Shown here piece after piece: positions 3,782 through 41,677 of a stretch of 64,000 nucleotides of DNA (the stretch's first letter is position 1; the number at the start of each line of letters is the position of its first letter). The notes below the pieces were generated by a model. That model did no database searches and was not told the origin of the DNA. It was given only the letters and a program-made list of their open reading frames with translations. This stretch comes from Chryseobacterium joostei (GTDB taxonomy: Bacteria > Bacteroidota > Bacteroidia > Flavobacteriales > Weeksellaceae). The stretch is from positions 186,001-250,000 of the forward strand of contig NZ_CP033926.1 of assembly GCF_003815775.1 (NCBI RefSeq), written 5' to 3'. The position numbers and the translations under genes were made by a program.

Positions 3782-4525
3782 ATGAATAAGATCTTTGCAG
3801 TACTATTATTATTTACCATACTGTTTTCCTGTACAGACAACACTGTCATGGAGCCGTATGATACAATACAAAAACCCGGAGATATAGCCATCAACGGATA
3901 TTCCAAGCCTGATGTACTTCAGTTGAGATTTAATGGAACTCCCATATCCATTAACGGAAATACCTCATATACCAATAAAATAGAGACCAACATTCAGTTT
4001 GCACAGGATCAAGGAGAAACAAACAAACTGGCAATATATAATAATGAAACAGGAAAGGAAATAGCACAATACAATATCACCTATGATAATATAGATGATT
4101 ATAAAAAGCTGTATTTCTTCAACTTACCTGGCATCTTTCTGCAAACTAATATCGTAAAGCCTCAGGTAAACCTTGGAAAAGTAGGCTTCGAATTTATTTT
4201 TCCAAATCTGGGAGAATTTTCAGGATCATCTCTTAAAAATGTAAAAGGTGTTTTAAAAAGAGAAAATGGAGTGGTATTGGCAGAGTTTGACACTATTGGG
4301 AAAGATAATTTCACAGCAGTGAAAGTCTATAGTTTTTTCAGCTCCACAGCTCCCGTTTATCTTGAATTATATAAGCCCGGGACTACAGAACCCTACATTG
4401 GATCCGAAATTATTAAGGTTAAAATAAAGCAGCATATGGGTGCCAATATGATTGTTCTTCAGGAAAAAATGGAAAACGGAAAATGGGTGGTAAAAGGGGA
4501 CATTGATGTAGCAGAATATTTGTAA
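3782..4525 (+). CDS. hypothetical lipoprotein
   Basis: This 247-residue protein has a lipoprotein signal MNKIFAVLLLFTILFSC with the lipidated Cys at residue 17. The mature part looks beta-rich and I recognise no family. It ends six bases before the S41 protease lipoprotein gene, so the two are probably cotranscribed and could work together at the membrane. A terminator immediately upstream suggests the pair has its own promoter. Confidence 0.75.
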   Translation: MNKIFAVLLLFTILFSCTDNTVMEPYDTIQKPGDIAINGYSKPDVLQLRFNGTPISINGNTSYTNKIETNIQFAQDQGETNKLAIYNNETGKEIAQYNITYDNIDDYKKLYFFNLPGIFLQTNIVKPQVNLGKVGFEFIFPNLGEFSGSSLKNVKGVLKRENGVVLAEFDTIGKDNFTAVKVYSFFSSTAPVYLELYKPGTTEPYIGSEIIKVKIKQHMGANMIVLQEKMENGKWVVKGDIDVAEYL

Positions 4526-4531
4526 TCTGAG

Positions 4532-5872
4532 ATGAGAAACTTTTTAAAACTTCAGTGCATAGCCATGATAGCCATTCTAATGTCCTGCACAAACAATGAT
4601 GAAAATATTCCTGCTTTTCCTGAGGGAAGCACAGAATCTGTCAATGTTTGGGTACAGGACAGCATGAAGCGCTACTATTACTGGGCAGATCAGATGCCTG
4701 CCAAACCTGACTATCATCTTCCGGTAAAAGATTTTTTTAAAAGTCTGCTGTCTTCTCAGGATCGGTTTTCATTTATTGTAAATACCGAAGACTCTTCCAG
4801 CTATCCACGCTCCATTAGAAATATGTATGGTTTCGATTATACGGTTCTTCAGCTGGCCAACGGGGAAGTAGTTACAGTGATTAAATTGGTTCTTAAAAAC
4901 TCTCCTGCATTCAATGCCGGGCTGGAACGGGGAATGATTATCACCAAAATCAATGGAAAAACCGTGACAGCGGCCAATGCAGAAACCATGACCGCTTCCA
5001 TGAAAGATTTCACGGTGCTGGATCTTACGCTGGGAGACTGGAAAAATGGAACCATTACCGATGAAAAGGAAGTTAAGGTGTATTATGGCTTATCTCTCGA
5101 ACAACCTATATTATCCAGAATATTTGAAAAAAACGGTAAAAAGGTAGGCTACCTTTATATCTATGATTTTCCGGATGGAATGACTTCCGTGTTCAATCAA
5201 AAATTTGCAGAGTTTAAGGCTGCCGGCGTACAGGAACTGATTCTGGATCTTCGGTACAACTATGGCGGATCTGTATCTGCCGCTGCTGCACTTTGTTCAC
5301 TGATTCCTTCAGGTATTTCTTCAGGTTCATCATTCATTCTGTTTAAAGGAAATAAAAATGGCGGTCAGGTAAAAAGAACATTTGCCCAGCAGATTGCCTA
5401 TGATCCAAAAGCTCTTGATTTTAATACTTTGCGAGCCAATGCTTTGGGATTAAGTAAAGTCTATATTCTGACTTCAAACAGTACGGCATCAGCTGCAGAA
5501 ATAGTGATTAATAACTTAAAGCCTTACTTGCAGGTTATTCAAATAGGGAATACAACCCTAGGAAAAGACATGGCAGGATTTACAGTAGAAGATAGACGGA
5601 AGCCAAAACATATTTCATGGCAGATTCATCCGGTAATTTATAAAGTATTTAATGCCGATGGATCTGGGGAATATAGCAACGGAATCTCACCACAGATTAC
5701 AGTGAATGAATATGCTGAGCTGCCATTATTACCTTTAGGCGATCCTGATGAAACCCTCATCTCATCTGTTCTTAACGGCACGTATCTAAAGTCAGCAGGT
5801 CATGATGGACTGGAAAAAGACGTGAAGATTTTGTACCAGAGTGACTTGAATTTTATGCAGGGGCAGAAGTAG
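4532..5872 (+). CDS. S41 family C-terminal-processing peptidase, lipoprotein
   Basis: This 446-residue protein has a lipobox ending at Cys19 (A-I-L-M-S-C). A PDZ-like segment lies near residues 95-150 (K-N-S-P-A-F-N-A-G-L-E-R-G-M-I-I-T-K-I-N-G-K). The S41 core follows: L-I-L-D-L-R-Y-N-Y-G-G and the catalytic serine motif S-T-A-S-A-A-E near residue 320, with a likely catalytic Lys in G-K-D-M-A-G. It resembles the lipoprotein S41 peptidases common in Bacteroidota and would cleave exposed C-termini of periplasmic or surface proteins. It is probably cotranscribed with the preceding lipoprotein gene. Confidence 0.88.
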   Translation: MRNFLKLQCIAMIAILMSCTNNDENIPAFPEGSTESVNVWVQDSMKRYYYWADQMPAKPDYHLPVKDFFKSLLSSQDRFSFIVNTEDSSSYPRSIRNMYGFDYTVLQLANGEVVTVIKLVLKNSPAFNAGLERGMIITKINGKTVTAANAETMTASMKDFTVLDLTLGDWKNGTITDEKEVKVYYGLSLEQPILSRIFEKNGKKVGYLYIYDFPDGMTSVFNQKFAEFKAAGVQELILDLRYNYGGSVSAAAALCSLIPSGISSGSSFILFKGNKNGGQVKRTFAQQIAYDPKALDFNTLRANALGLSKVYILTSNSTASAAEIVINNLKPYLQVIQIGNTTLGKDMAGFTVEDRRKPKHISWQIHPVIYKVFNADGSGEYSNGISPQITVNEYAELPLLPLGDPDETLISSVLNGTYLKSAGHDGLEKDVKILYQSDLNFMQGQK

Positions 5873-37291: not shown

Positions 37292-37331
37292 AATTAACAA
37301 CGGCTAAGTTGCGCTAATGTAGATGTTAGCG
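37292..37331 (+). repeat. short attC-like site 1
   Basis: TTAACAACGGC near 37294 and a right core GTTAGCG at 37325-37331 flank a short imperfect palindrome (CGCTAA...TTAGCG). It is much shorter than the other sites and may be an internally deleted copy. The sequence after the right core resembles the 5' leader of the next gene. Confidence 0.4.
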
Positions 37332-37377
37332 GTAATTTTACAGACCGACACAAGATAAAACGAACAATGAAAAAAGT

Positions 37378-37914
37378 ATGAAAAAAATATTAACACTAAT
37401 TATCTTTTGTTTGACTTGTAATTTGTGCTTATCTCAAAAATTTATACGTTACAAAAAAACAAATATTGATTTTGATAATTCATATTTTAATATAACAAAA
37501 GAACAAGAAAAGACAATTGAGTTATATTTAATCGCAAAATCTCAATTTAGTTTAATTCGAGATTATCCACGTATTATAGGGATAGACAAGGATGGCAATA
37601 TTTTTACTTTTGATAAATATAAAGATTTGTATGACGAATGTGAAAAAGAGAAATGTATTTGGAAAATTAACCTATTCAATATGGAGTTTCTTAGAATGGA
37701 AAAAGGTAGAAATTTAATGGCTTATACTGTACTTGAGCCAGATTGGTATAAAGTTGACGAAACAAAATCTGATTATTTGGAGAGGTATGGTTCATATGAA
37801 GAAACAAAAAAAAACAAATTACTTAGCCCCATAAGGTGTATTCGTCAAATAAATAAAATTAATAAATATAACCAAAAATATACGTTCTTCTATCTAAATG
37901 ATTATGGAGAATAA
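37378..37914 (+). CDS. secreted hypothetical protein in attC-like cassette
   Basis: This 178-residue protein has signal peptide MKKILTLIIFCLTCNLCLS and a Lys/Tyr-rich mature part; no family is recognised. A four-codon frame (MKKV, stop overlapping the start region) precedes it. The downstream junction keeps only CTCTAACAAGG of an attC left core and then runs straight into a leader like this gene's own leader, so the attC hairpin seems lost here. Confidence 0.6.
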   Translation: MKKILTLIIFCLTCNLCLSQKFIRYKKTNIDFDNSYFNITKEQEKTIELYLIAKSQFSLIRDYPRIIGIDKDGNIFTFDKYKDLYDECEKEKCIWKINLFNMEFLRMEKGRNLMAYTVLEPDWYKVDETKSDYLERYGSYEETKKNKLLSPIRCIRQINKINKYNQKYTFFYLNDYGE

Positions 37915-38002
37915 AAACTACCTCTAACAAGGTGATTTTACAGAACTGACTTCAATAAAACGAACTTTACCACATAATGAAAAAAATATTTTTACAATTC
38001 TT

Positions 38003-38473
38003 TTGATTTTAGCAGTTTCTCAGCTATTTGCTCAATCAAAGGTTACAGACCTACCATATCTTGAAAGCAATGGTTTAAATAGAAATGCTGAATACTCGTG
38101 GAAAATTAAGATTGACGAAAATAAGCCTTTGATATTATCAAACAAAAAGGCTTATTATAAAGAGTTAGTCTTTATAGACGAACATAATGCAATAATTATA
38201 GAATATTATCCTGTTAACAATGAAAAAATTTCAACGTTTGTGAATTTGCAATATCCTCTTTTTGAAAAAAAAGTTAACGAAGTAGAATACGTTACAAAAC
38301 AAAAGTATATTAAAAGACAAAGGTTTATTGTTTTGATAAATAAGATGGATAAAAACGAGCGAATTTTTAAAGCCGAAGAAGATGAATATGAAATATGGTC
38401 TTTAATTGACACTAAATCTAAGGAAAAGTATATTCAAAATAAACATATTAATTATCAGAAAGATGGTAACTAA
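38003..38473 (+). CDS. secreted hypothetical protein with probable 5' frameshift in an A tract
   Basis: The open frame begins at a TTG (38003) and encodes 156 residues starting I-L-A-V-S-Q-L-F-A-Q, which is the end of a signal peptide. An ATG at 37977 is out of frame: it is followed by seven A (37980-37986), and eight would give M-K-K-N-I-F-T-I-L-L-I-L-A-V-S-Q-L-F-A-Q, a perfect signal sequence. The gene is therefore either frameshifted, phase-variable or miscalled. The mature part has no recognised family. An attC-like site follows 12 bases after the stop. Confidence 0.55.
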   Translation: MILAVSQLFAQSKVTDLPYLESNGLNRNAEYSWKIKIDENKPLILSNKKAYYKELVFIDEHNAIIIEYYPVNNEKISTFVNLQYPLFEKKVNEVEYVTKQKYIKRQRFIVLINKMDKNERIFKAEEDEYEIWSLIDTKSKEKYIQNKHINYQKDGN

Positions 38474-38485
38474 CTAAAAAACTGC

Positions 38486-38614
38486 ACACAACAAGGGTTT
38501 TGCAATAGTGGGGCGAAACTGCAAAGTTCAATGGCAGTTCTTCGATTTAATTTTTATGCAAAATTGAAGATTTTCGCTTCGATTGCCCCACCATTGCAAA
38601 GCCCCGAATTAGCT
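38486..38614 (+). repeat. attC-like site 3
   Basis: The left arm GGGTTTTGCAATAGTGGGGC (38495-38514) pairs with the right arm GCCCCACCATTGCAAAGCCC, with two mismatches. The outer cores are degenerate (ACACAAC on the left, ATTAGC on the right). The left 40 bases are nearly identical to site 7 at 41545. Confidence 0.6.
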
Positions 38615-38650
38615 GACATTCTTGGAAAACATTGGGAAATTAATGCAAAT

Positions 38651-39145
38651 ATGAAATTGAGAAAATCAAAAAAAGTATCACTCAAAAATACCCTCTTTTT
38701 CTTAGGGCTAATTTTGAACATCGTTGTCGTGAAACTTTTTGCCAAAACTGTAATTAGCCCTTTTACTATCCTACAACTCTATTTAATTCCTGGTTTAATT
38801 TCATATTTTATTATAGATAAATTTACCAAAATAGAATTGAGCATCTTTATCAAATTTGTATATTCGACAGTATCGTTTGGAAGTCTGTTCACAACTTTAT
38901 TACTATTCATAAATTTGAATTTTAAATCTTCCGAAAATTTTAAAATTGTAGAGACTAAAATTTTGAAAAAAGGGTTTACTACAAGAACAAGACAACCAAC
39001 AGCAGATGCTGAAGTGGATGGAATAATAAAGGGATTTGTATTTCGAAAACTCAAAAATTTAGATGATTATTCATCAATCCAATTAAAATTACGTGAAGGC
39101 ACAATTGGCTGGAATATTATAGAACAAAGCAAATTACTAAAATAG
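38651..39145 (+). CDS. membrane protein of unknown function in attC-like cassette
   Basis: The preferred ATG at 38651 gives 164 residues; the frame is open upstream only because it runs through the attC-like hairpin. It has three hydrophobic segments in the first 100 residues and a soluble C-terminal domain of about 70 residues (R-T-R-Q-P-T-A-D-A-E-V-D-G). No family is recognised. Its stop is seven bases before the next attC-like site. Confidence 0.6.
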   Translation: MKLRKSKKVSLKNTLFFLGLILNIVVVKLFAKTVISPFTILQLYLIPGLISYFIIDKFTKIELSIFIKFVYSTVSFGSLFTTLLLFINLNFKSSENFKIVETKILKKGFTTRTRQPTADAEVDGIIKGFVFRKLKNLDDYSSIQLKLREGTIGWNIIEQSKLLK

Positions 39146-39151
39146 AACGTC

Positions 39152-39283
39152 AGCTAACAACGCATTTAAGAAATTGCTGGTTTTGTAGTGATTGAACGAT
39201 TCATCAAACCAAGAAAATTATATCTTAGCGGAGAGAACTCTACTCCTATTTCCGCAACTTCTCAAATGCGCGAAACGTTAGCG
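39152..39283 (+). repeat. attC-like site 4 (best preserved)
   Basis: GCTAAC at 39153-39158 and GTTAGC at 39277-39282 form inverted outer cores. Inside, CGCATTTAAGAAATTGC (left) pairs with GCAACTTCTCAAATGCG (right, from 39254) with two mismatches. The total span is about 132 bases, with a bubble between cores and arms. This matches the general layout of integron attC sites: R''-L'' ... L'-R'. Confidence 0.65.
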
Positions 39284-39316
39284 GTAATTGTAAAACAAAA
39301 TTGTGCTAAAAACAAA

Positions 39317-39907
39317 ATGAAGAAAATAATTGGAATTTTTATTGGATTAATAACTCTGACAATTATTGTTTGTTTTACTTTTTACAGATATTATTTTTCC
39401 GACGAAAAAGTTCAAGAACGAAAAATAGAAATTTGGAATAAGCGAGTAGATGAATTTAAAAACTCGAAATCTGGCAAAATTGATTTCGAAAATAACATTA
39501 ACTTAAGATGGACTATTAAAGATTTTGATTCAAAAAATCATCAAATTGAATATTGTGAAAATGAATACCAAGACGCAACTTATATTTGTAGTATAGATAA
39601 TGAGCTTTGGTATGGTTCTGATTTCAGAATGGATTTACCAAAAAATGAACTGAAATCACTCGCAATATCCGTAGATGGAAAATATATAAAATTAGAGGTA
39701 TCGCAGATGTTTAACCCAAATTTGAACGGAGAATTAATTAAAGAACAATTCAAAATTGAAAAAAAATCAGATTATTATATTTTGTATGGATTTTTTTCGG
39801 ATGGTGCTGGAACATACACAACTAATTGGAAAATTAAAAATGGAAAATCTGAACGAGGAAAAATATCAAAAGGTGACCAAGATTTTAATTGGCAAAATAC
39901 TAACTGA
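39317..39907 (+). CDS. membrane-anchored hypothetical protein in attC-like cassette
   Basis: The start at 39317 gives 196 residues; an earlier frame start lies inside the attC-like site and is rejected. An N-terminal transmembrane anchor (I-I-G-I-F-I-G-L-I-T-L-T-I-I-V-C-F) is followed by a soluble domain with no recognised family. It begins 34 bases after the right core and ends 15 bases before the next core, the compact layout of a gene cassette. Confidence 0.6.
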   Translation: MKKIIGIFIGLITLTIIVCFTFYRYYFSDEKVQERKIEIWNKRVDEFKNSKSGKIDFENNINLRWTIKDFDSKNHQIEYCENEYQDATYICSIDNELWYGSDFRMDLPKNELKSLAISVDGKYIKLEVSQMFNPNLNGELIKEQFKIEKKSDYYILYGFFSDGAGTYTTNWKIKNGKSERGKISKGDQDFNWQNTN

Positions 39908-39921
39908 AAATTACAACTACT

Positions 39922-39940
39922 GCTAACCGAAACGTTAGCG
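39922..39940 (+). repeat. collapsed attC-like site 5
   Basis: GCTAAC (39922-39927) and GTTAGC (39934-39939) are separated by only six bases, CGAAAC. This is what remains if the central hairpin of an attC site is deleted while both outer cores are kept. Confidence 0.5.
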
Positions 39941-39963
39941 GTTATGCTATGACAACAGTAACA

Positions 39964-40599
39964 ATGGACAAATATTTAATCGACCTAATTGAAAGAATGT
40001 TGGACACCAGCGACCAAATTATGGAAGCCGGTTATGACAGTTCTAAAACCATTTCGTGGAAAGCACTTAGAGAAGCAGAAAAAGTTGACAAAGCGGACTA
40101 CGTACCTCAACTAATTCTTTTCATAGACAAAGAAAAAGACAAAAAGAAGCGTGGCGAAGCATACTTTCTACTTGGGCACATTGCAAAAAACACGAACGAC
40201 ACAACAGCGTTGAACTATTTAATTCAGCGGGTTGACAAAGAGACGGACAAATACATTGTTTCGTCACTTCTCGACAGAATTGGGGATATCAAAAAACCAA
40301 CAGGAACAAATTTGCAGCCATTAATTACAGCTACCAAAAATGACAAATGGTTAATAAGACATAGCGCTATTCAATCTTTAAATTATTCGACTGACCCAGA
40401 TGCAGAATCAACCCTAATTGAAATTCTTGATAGTTCAGATAACCAATACAACTTGACTTATTCAAATGCGACACTAAATAGAATTGGAACATTAAGAGCT
40501 ATTCCACATTTAGAGAAGCATTTGAAAAGTAGAAAAAGAGACGTGAAAGACTCTGCAAAATTTGCAATTGAAGAAATATTGAAACGGAATGGACAATAA
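39964..40599 (+). CDS. HEAT-repeat protein in attC-like cassette
   Basis: From ATG 39964 this is 211 residues; an in-frame ATG 15 bases upstream is possible, but the chosen start aligns with the paralogue at 46661 (M-D-K-Y-L-I-D-L-I-E-R versus M-N-K-Y-I-L-D-L-I-S-R). Helical repeats are visible (R-G-E-A-Y-F-L-L-G-H-I-A-K and I-R-H-S-A-I-Q-S-L). HEAT-type proteins of this size are common in immunity arrays. An attC-like site follows 10 bases after its stop. Confidence 0.7.
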   Translation: MDKYLIDLIERMLDTSDQIMEAGYDSSKTISWKALREAEKVDKADYVPQLILFIDKEKDKKKRGEAYFLLGHIAKNTNDTTALNYLIQRVDKETDKYIVSSLLDRIGDIKKPTGTNLQPLITATKNDKWLIRHSAIQSLNYSTDPDAESTLIEILDSSDNQYNLTYSNATLNRIGTLRAIPHLEKHLKSRKRDVKDSAKFAIEEILKRNGQ

Positions 40600-40608
40600 A
40601 GCACAAAC

Positions 40609-40738
40609 CGCTAACACGGGTTTTGCTTTAGTGGGCTGACAGTGCGAATAGAAATATTTGAGCAATTAATAAACGTTGGTGCTGGCAGAAAGTTTACGGT
40701 TTCAAAAGCCCACCAACGCAAAGCCCAAAACCGTTAGT
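40609..40738 (+). repeat. attC-like site 6
   Basis: Left core GCTAAC at 40610-40615 and right core GTTAG at 40733-40737. The arms GGGTTTTGCTTTAGTGGGCT and AGCCCACCAACGCAAAGCCC pair with about four mismatches over 20 bases. Confidence 0.6.
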
Positions 40739-40798
40739 AGCCATTTTAAAACGACAGACCTTTAACATTAGAACAACCTAAAAATAAAACACAAAAAT

Positions 40799-41536
40799 AT
40801 GGGATTTTTTAATAAAATTTTTGGACAAAACGACAAAACAGAACAAACCAACGAAACACAATCACAACAAAATTTAGCACCTTGTAAAACAGAACAAGAA
40901 CTTATCGAAAGATATGGCGGAATTGCAATGGATAAGCAATTAAGTTTCGGAGATTTTATTGGTAATAACAATTGGAATATAAATATAGCAAACGGTGAAA
41001 TAAGCTTTGGAACTGACATTGTTCTTCCTATGCAAGTACTTGGTACAATTTCTCACTCTTCACAGACTTGGCTTTGGGCTTGGGCAAATACTAAATCAGG
41101 TCTTTCCGAAAATGTAATTAAACAAGCATTGCAACTAAAAAAATATGGCGAAGAAAATAAGATTGACCTTTTAAAAAATGATACTTTCGATTTTACAAAA
41201 GAGGACTTACATCTAATTGGAATAATTGCATCAGGAATTCATAATTCTAGTGGATATTATATTTGTGATTACGGACAAGGTGCAATGGTTGTAACAATAA
41301 AAAGCGAAAAAGTGGACAAAATTAATAAAGAAGATAATCATCACAGAATTTTAACCGTTTTTCCTCAATTAATTTCACAATTTGAAATGAACCACAATTA
41401 TGCTCTGACAAATTATCTAATTGCAAAAGGTTATACGATTTCAGAAAATGGAACAAAATTAATTGCCACAAAAAACGGACAAACTATAACTGCTGAGTTT
41501 GACGAACTATCAAGACTAACAAAACTAAACGGATAA
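40799..41536 (+). CDS. DUF6882-like protein in attC-like cassette
   Basis: This 245-residue soluble protein has the motif Q-V-L-G-T-I-S-H-S-S-Q-T-W-L-W-A-W-A-N near residue 82, which I associate with DUF6882 proteins of unknown function. Asn/Gln-rich linker sequence lies in the first 35 residues. It begins about 60 bases after the preceding right core and its attC-like site begins eight bases after the stop. Confidence 0.65.
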   Translation: MGFFNKIFGQNDKTEQTNETQSQQNLAPCKTEQELIERYGGIAMDKQLSFGDFIGNNNWNINIANGEISFGTDIVLPMQVLGTISHSSQTWLWAWANTKSGLSENVIKQALQLKKYGEENKIDLLKNDTFDFTKEDLHLIGIIASGIHNSSGYYICDYGQGAMVVTIKSEKVDKINKEDNHHRILTVFPQLISQFEMNHNYALTNYLIAKGYTISENGTKLIATKNGQTITAEFDELSRLTKLNG

Positions 41537-41544
41537 AAAACGTC

Positions 41545-41677
41545 GCATAACAAGGGTTTTGCAATAGTGGGGCGAAACTGCAAAGTTCAACGGTATTTCT
41601 TCGGTTCAACTTTTGTACAAAATTGAAGATTTGTGCTTCAAAATCCCGCCCGAACGCAAAGCCCCGAAACGTTAGTG
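41545..41677 (+). repeat. attC-like site 7
   Basis: Left core GCATAAC (41545-41551) and right core GTTAGTG (41671-41677), with inner arms GGGTTTTGC...GGGGCG and CCCGCCC...GCAAAGCCCC. Its left 40 bases match site 3 almost exactly, and much of the middle is alignable too. No further site of this kind is seen downstream. Confidence 0.6.

Follow-up and report, generated by a model that had tools for sequence, protein, structure and literature searches.

An apparently orphan gene-cassette array in Chryseobacterium joostei that looks like part of an integron-type system of the Bacteroidia

The DNA analyzed here is a 64-kb stretch of the Chryseobacterium joostei chromosome (the window; C1:186001-250000 of the 4.89-Mb genome). 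Window positions 37301 to 41677 are occupied by six small genes on the plus strand and, alternating with them, sites that resemble attC, the recombination sites of integron gene cassettes (Table 1). Four sites (S3, S4, S6, and S7) are full-length, at ~130 nt each, and three (S1, S2, and S5) are remnants. An initial annotation, made from the sequence alone, had placed four sites of this length here, among six elements with paired cores. The four were recovered by a covariance model, R1, which we built from 41 sites, with S4, S6, and S7 among the training sites and S3 outside them. They score 89.3-103.9 bits (E 1.3e-17 to 7.8e-21 in the 64-kb window), and the best remaining match reaches only 12.8 bits (E 0.89). 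Paired cores are found in the full-length sites, apart from a right core of ATTAG in S3; the other elements fared less well, as S1 is degenerate, S2 has a left core only, and S5 is without a hairpin. None of these three remnants was matched by R1 in the window scan. The left core lies close behind a stop codon in 6/6 cases, at a distance of 6-13 nt rather than the 7-13 nt first given, and S3 and S7, originally remarked to be nearly identical over their left 40 bases, are 87% identical over 106 nt. Sites in L044, L078, and L079 are 91-93% identical to S3, and a site in another family (L047) is 93% identical to S6 over 129 nt. The folding z-scores of the bottom strand against shuffles (-3.8 for S3, -3.4 for S4, -1.0 for S6, and -0.3 for S7) are weaker evidence and not decisive. 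At Rfam gathering scores, the window gave one tRNA and no other match. Among the cassettes, only the products of 5 and 6 have Pfam matches over cut-off, and a search of all six for defense functions returned one HEAT match at 4e-4 and otherwise nothing.

Table 1. Sites and cassettes of the window array; cassettes run from the 5′ end to R′′ unless only the gene is given. R′, right core; R′′, left core
Feature	Window coordinates	Strand	Description
S1	37301-37331	+	Degenerate short site (GCGCTAAT..GATGTTAGCGG); R′ GTTAGCGGTAATT is the start of cassette 1; no R1 match
Cassette 1	37326-37927	+	Gene 37378-37914, 178 aa, no Pfam match
S2	37922-37960	+	Only a left core, CTCTAAC, remains, without hairpin or right core
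Cassette 2, gene	38003-38473	+	156 aa from TTG, start putative; ATG at 37977 stops after nine codons
S3	38486-38614	+	attC-like; right core ATTAG in place of GTTAG; R1 89.3 bits
Cassette 3	38609-39157	+	Gene 38651-39145, 164 aa, no Pfam match; ends agree 11/12
S4	39152-39283	+	attC-like; stem CGCATTT..AAATGCG; R1 96.5 bits, training member
Cassette 4	39278-39926	+	Gene 39317-39907, 196 aa, no Pfam match over cut-off
S5	39921-39942	+	Both cores and right spacer left (CTAAC-CGAAAC-GTTAG); no hairpin
Cassette 5	39935-40614	+	Gene 39949-40599 (HEAT repeats, E 2.7e-14); exact agreement over the first nine nt
S6	40609-40739	+	attC-like; R1 99.4 bits, training member
Cassette 6	40734-41550	+	Gene 40799-41536, DUF6882, E 6.2e-31; R′′ unlike 5′ end
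S7	41545-41677	+	attC-like, final site of the array; R1 103.9 bits, E 7.8e-21, training member

The same sites recur in relatives, where a tyrosine recombinase stands at the head of the arrays. A detector that required AAC, GTT, and a stem whose offsets were fixed was run on 24 loci; its matches had a sharp length peak at 120-123 nt and numbered 50, versus 9 in the reversed sequence. A fixed sequence pattern was rejected in favor of the covariance model: three of its six matches in the C. joostei genome were true sites, and its matches in 47 of 59 relatives were mostly chance, because the reversed control had more. Across the 41 aligned sites, 87.3% of the cells in 18 stem pairs are paired, compared with 55.8% after shuffling and 36-46% when slid. 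Cells changed on both sides number 204, versus 73 in the shuffles (SD 5.7; 0/500 as high). The stem covaries, and the hairpin is thus kept in structure rather than in sequence. Hairpins that lie 6-13 nt after stop codons, two of them nearly identical, might be taken for palindromic repeats (transposon relics, repetitive extragenic palindromes or miniature inverted-repeat transposable elements, or transcription terminators) that merely lie 3′ of genes. However, their stems differ in sequence yet covary, the sites form arrays adjoining an integrase, and the cassette signature described below has no place in such an explanation, which we consider to have almost no chance of being correct.

AAC and GTT are present in all 41 sites. 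The initial annotation had regarded the partial fit of the cores to RYYYAAC/GTTRRRY as a weakness; the fit is indeed partial (Y before AAC in 41/41, the next Y outward in 22/41), but it looks like a property of the lineage, as the bases beyond the invariant AAC and GTT vary between cassettes and agree within one cassette. The central spacer is unpaired and asymmetric, with left and right lengths of (1,5) in 19, (2,6) in 11, and (3,6) in 4 of the sites, and the commonest spacers are 1-3 nt on the left versus 5-7 nt on the right. One stem position, between covarying helices, is A in 41/41 sites and is never paired, lying opposite C in 32, G in 7, and A in 2; on the bottom strand it is T, mostly facing G. 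The bottom-strand arms alone are the more stable in 37/41 sites. Arrays at three further loci (L213, L215, and L221) mix sites of ~57-75, 120, and 165 nt (AAC to GTT) that have the same cores and cassette signature.

If the mobile unit were a circle cut at G^TT, the left core of a site (R′′) should match the start of its own cassette, which is the right core (R′) of the preceding site, and not the R′ of its own site. Over 46 consecutive pairs, with a median spacing of ~1.0 kb, R′′ is the exact reverse complement (4/4 variable nt) of the preceding R′ in 35 and of its own R′ in 3, compared with a mean of 3.0 and a maximum of 10 in 10,000 permutations. Eight isolated detector matches had been dropped by hand before this count (window 37388, L044 2417, L046 18551, L078 9213, L080 2451, L082 4431, L083 17450, and L088 12437), and the script skipped S3 and S5, so that its two window pairs are not exact neighbors. 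The signature recurred in held-out data from 20 integrase loci in 20 other families of the class (22/31, versus 2/31 for the own core), and in a third set under a strict filter (7/10 versus 0; permutations, mean 1.1, maximum 5). Since R′′ matches the 5′ end of its own cassette, the crossover is placed at G^TT of the right core, where the initial annotation had proposed that breakpoints would fall and where a comparison of species supports them. By this comparison, the cassette unit would be TT...gene...site...G. Of the window cassettes, 3 and 5 show the signature clearly, and a near match is seen in 1 (TTAGCGGTAATT versus TTAGAGGTAGTT, the reverse complement of R′′; 10/12 agree) and 4 (TTAGCGGTA versus the reverse complement TTAGCAGTA; 8/9 agree, read by hand).

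A second feature of integrons is an attI site beside the integrase. We fetched 43 integrase loci, of which 25 with a recognized first site were tested and 18 without one were left aside. A GTT followed by at least 4 nt complementary to the first R′′ lies within 500 nt of the integrase at 19/25 loci, versus a mean of 1.7 and a maximum of 8 in 2,000 shuffles, and the complementarity often extends 6-7 nt beyond GTT. One attI-like site is shared by four species whose 274-residue integrases are orthologs (P0002 and three others 82-88% identical to it). The site ends TGGATTGACGCAATGCGTAAATTT(G/A)GAA and is conserved up to GTT and divergent after it; the bases that follow GTT match the left core of the first cassette in all four. 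In the four short, divergent integrases, the attI-like GTT is 173-174 nt from the start codon. Among positive loci, 13 have an integrase that runs in the direction of the array; GTT lies 98-137 nt beyond the end of the integrase match in 11 of them, and at 48 and 202 nt in the other two. The sites point away from the integrase in the 15 loci of the first set; the exceptions are the lone site of L080 and the sites of L097. An attI-like site was recognized in relatives only, and none was recognized in the window.

Copies of an attI-like core, GATTGACGCAATGCG, also occur away from array-type integrases (L146 8952 and 16306, L139 6988, and L123 665, minus strand). The two in L146 correspond to ~735 and 742 kb of contig C1 in genome G082, whose single array-type integrase is at 1838 kb; none reaches E ≤ 1e-30 in genome G081. 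The copy at 735 kb holds one cassette, with matching ends, that is 76% identical to window cassette 6. Such stray copies may be attI relics or secondary targets.

The recombinases that head the arrays differ from IntI, the integrase of known integrons. The distance from KDR to HxxRH is 61-62 residues in 49/49 integrases of the family, versus 103-106 in 25/28 IntI proteins (three were not measured), and ~42 residues of IntI, in the region of I2, are missing from all 49. These 49 rows represent 47 different genes (L178 = L088, and L189 = L085), not every one of which was shown with an array beside it. An initial regular expression for KDR-type spacing recognized just 6/26 array integrases and was discarded. 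The catalytic K, H, R, H, and Y are present in 21/21 array integrases, and the first R in 20/21. Three array integrases were scored against protein models: with TIGR02249 (IntI) they reach 204-215 bits, below the cut-off of 265, and with NF040815 (XerA-type; threshold 220 bits) they reach 234.6, 234.6, and 230.5 bits. The latter model, whose NCBI name is already "site-specific tyrosine recombinase/integron integrase," is also passed by XerD of C. joostei (238.8 bits). In a quick tree, the array integrases group with IntI apart from Xer (Shimodaira-Hasegawa-like approximate likelihood ratio test 89, under its mark of 95), with IntI as one clade on a long stem and the unity of the array integrases supported at 42; the array integrases may be a grade around IntI.

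Long array integrases have an extra N-terminal stretch and run in the direction of the array. Its ~80 residues (L047:13709-14848, minus strand, and among L178-L206) are conserved, with the motif GAxWSxTxxxW, and weakly resemble HARP or DUF5710; the HARP match was seen in 3/19 members at E ≤ 1, at best 5.8e-5 and under the Pfam cut-off, and a profile search of the PDB with this stretch gave nothing relevant. HARP binds DNA in other proteins, and the stretch might take the place of I2. At L097 (1246-6415; G090:C14), a tyrosine recombinase of a second type (39% identical) is encoded on the plus strand at 4361-5182, between minus-strand attC-like sites, as if carried within an array.

The sites themselves depart from the canonical form. 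The definitions of extrahelical bases are those of a published account (PMC2727003). The two or three extrahelical bases of the R′′-L′′ arm are not seen in our sites: when the best unbulged pairing was compared with the best bulged pairing, a left-arm bulge gained at least 2 pairs in 0/41 sites and a right-arm bulge in 3/41. (An earlier test at the bulged optimum only, with right-arm gains in 17/41, was an unfair comparison and was discarded.) In a canonical control beside true IntI, consisting of ten sites hand-picked out of 36 candidates (some of them false, and drawn from both strands), the left-arm bulge gained in 6/10 and the right-arm bulge in 2/10. These data bear upon the possibility that the window is an ordinary cluster of attC sites lacking integron-integrases (CALIN), i.e., that its sites are those of a canonical integron that has lost IntI. 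In its favor, the layout, crossover, and orientation of the arrays are those of integrons, and true IntI is over cut-off in 93/345 genomes, a count that covers the whole phylum and does not show the share of this class. However, among the IntI matches listed, just one genome is of the same class (G252) and none is of the same order, the array-heading integrases are without the IntI insert, and the left-arm bulges seen in the hand-picked control are missing here. A canonical origin of the array is very improbable in our view.

Sites and integrase are strongly linked. In a sample of 117 relatives, including C. joostei itself, with integrases called at E ≤ 1e-58 and strict site filters, sites are present in 20/21 integrase-bearing genomes (mean 8.4) versus 31/96 others (mean 1.0; p 6.7e-8). 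The linkage persists when genomes that gave training sites are excluded (8/9 versus 29/94, p 0.001). The L097 genome, G090, was left out of the integrase genomes, as its recombinase is 38-39% identical and belongs to another subfamily. That C. joostei and 30 more of the 96 have sites and no family integrase would fit a model in which the sites are moved in trans by host Xer or another tyrosine recombinase and the linked integrase is incidental; C. joostei has XerD, an XerC-like protein, and other tyrosine recombinases. The strength of the linkage speaks against that model, as do the attI-like sites matching the first cassette that adjoin the family integrase at 19 of the 25 loci, and we believe it to be very improbable.

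A profile of 21 array integrases matched 149/295 genomes of the class at E ≤ 1e-60, in 92/155 genera; this breadth is that of the integrase only, as arrays were checked in few of the 149. C. joostei, including its Xer proteins, stays outside this set. At 20 integrase loci in other families, inspected only downstream of the integrase (at least 2 kb in 13 loci, with 7 ending within 1.4 kb), we found seven with a full signature pair and three with sites but no such pair. The contigs of L208-L211, L214, L223, and L224 (7/20) end 0.1-1.4 kb after the integrase, as expected if assemblies break at repeated sites. A long array in G113 has 18 sites over about 32 kb. The gene-capture system looks widespread in flavobacteria and their relatives.

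We return now to C. joostei. Over its 4.89-Mb genome, R1 found nine sites at E ≤ 2e-6 and two weak ones (E 0.14 and 0.45). Four of the nine are in the window, four are in a second array ~250 kb away (C1:481105-487519), and one is at 4462669. The further copies for which the initial annotation had suggested a search do exist, and they are clustered rather than scattered, since 8/9 fall in two arrays. Taken together, we conclude that the cassette array in the window is probably orphaned and in part decayed and belongs to an integron-type system of the Bacteroidia, and estimate the probability of this reading, made from sequence comparison, at about 0.88.

Several observations weigh against this conclusion. 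At E ≤ 1e-30, a search of the C. joostei genome for array-type integrases matched XerD and nothing else, which extends the initial remark that no intI lies nearby, and a tblastn search of the window and of the second array gave no remnant of such a gene (E ≥ 2.7). Sites without a family integrase are also found in the other 30 relatives mentioned above, and no site lies downstream of the integrase in L217, L222, and L226, despite there being room. The integrase at L089 9596-10399 (G037) has S for the first catalytic R, yet heads one of the longest arrays. Two-sided change in 17/18 stem pairs is, by itself, unremarkable (mean of shuffles 15.4; 76/500 as high), and whole-site folding favors the bottom strand only mildly (29/41). 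Finally, in the window the cassette signature is missing in cassette 6 and untestable in cassette 2. For cassette 6, a 92% identical copy is present in genome G214. The break there falls at a CGTT core, the site that precedes the copy differs in its stem, and the left core of this copy, GGCTGCTAA, matches its own start, TTAGCAGCC. Because R′′ mismatches the 5′ end in the window and matches it in G214, the comparison suggests that the final site of window cassette 6 was exchanged.

With no array-type integrase found in the genome, both arrays look orphan and CALIN-like. A CALIN is two or more attC sites close together without an integrase. The four R1 sites of the window lie within 3.2 kb, with no array-type integrase, and so make a CALIN provided that they count as attC; the term used in the initial annotation stands in this working sense, although the sites are not those of a known IntI integron. 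The window array looks partly decayed, and its genes would now be stranded unless some integrase can act on the sites in trans.

How might such a system work? The integrase would bind the folded bottom strand of a site, cut at the GTT core, and join the GTT end to attI. Circular cassettes would be captured singly, with newer ones displacing older ones away from attI. Recombination would take place on sites free of extrahelical bulges, with an integrase that lacks the I2-bearing insert of IntI, and the asymmetric spacer and the invariant mispaired A are candidates for directing strand choice instead. Comparison between genomes shows the structure of the cassette unit, the crossover point, an attI-like site, linkage to an integrase, and a conserved hairpin. 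Judged on the genomic evidence of its unit, crossover, and attI, the system looks like an integron, but it fails two defining tests of the canonical kind, namely the integrase insert and the extrahelical bases.

The resemblance to known systems is close in several respects. Like the sedentary chromosomal integrons and CALINs associated with IntI (TIGR02249), the arrays have an integrase beside an attI-type site, one-gene cassettes, hairpin sites, AAC/GTT cores, an asymmetric central spacer, a crossover at G^TT, and considerable length. Unlike them, the integrases have no insert and the sites have no left-arm bulges and an invariant unpaired A, complementarity often continues 6-7 nt past GTT, the spacers are 1-3 versus 5-7 nt, and long integrases run in the direction of the array. 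Unlike XerA/XerD-type recombinases (NF040815; PDB 5hxy and 4a8e), the family is linked to cassette arrays and attI. As described in excerpts of two papers (PMC4792948, PMC7790495), integrative mobile elements exploiting Xer (IMEX) phages, such as CTXphi via XerCD, likewise use a folded single-strand site without extrahelical bases and a recombinase without I2. Those phages mimic dif and borrow XerCD, whereas here there is a linked integrase of the system's own, together with cassette arrays.

Passages of the literature indicate why the system may have been overlooked. A 2021 review lists Bacteroidota among the integron-bearing phyla (PMC8618304), but the account of IntegronFinder 2.0 gives for Bacteroidetes no more than integrase-only elements, from earlier work, and one complete integron, in Salinibacter (PMC9024848). 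Two surveys, according to their excerpts, chose integrases by the IntI-specific domain (PMC2426708, PMC9668308) and were therefore blind to this family. A further survey, as excerpted, calls the insert "not fully conserved" in an integron-like subgroup, yet "essential for integron function" (PMC8138268). Among the literature matches listed, in the text they display and with subscription papers and preprints outside the search, flavobacterial integrons of this kind are undescribed.

In known integrons, I2 is said in one excerpt to recognize the extrahelical bases, thereby impeding the second cleavage (PMC4792948), and in another the I2 region is reported to be essential in IntI1, as its deletion kills the enzyme (PMC7790495). 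How I2 and attC could precede each other is described in the first of these papers as a chicken-and-egg paradox (PMC4792948); the second states that, for I2 as the origin of single-strand recombination, direct proof "is not available" (PMC7790495). We tentatively propose, as a possibility that we ourselves would not yet bet on, that the arrays belong to a separate integron lineage of the Bacteroidia, which captures genes through folded single strands without I2 or extrahelical bases and keeps a state ancestral to IntI integrons. In that joint and equally tentative proposal, attC-like hairpins would have come first, and I2 and bulges later.

If the system works as proposed, much of the class may harbor a gene-capture system, and with it a pool of cassettes, that has gone unseen. 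An integrase that does without a part considered essential in integrons could reveal how they originated, and a natural integron free of both I2 and bulges would make the origin of I2 and of single-strand recombination directly testable. If true, the ancestral-state reading would resolve the chicken-and-egg question posed in the literature for I2 and attC.

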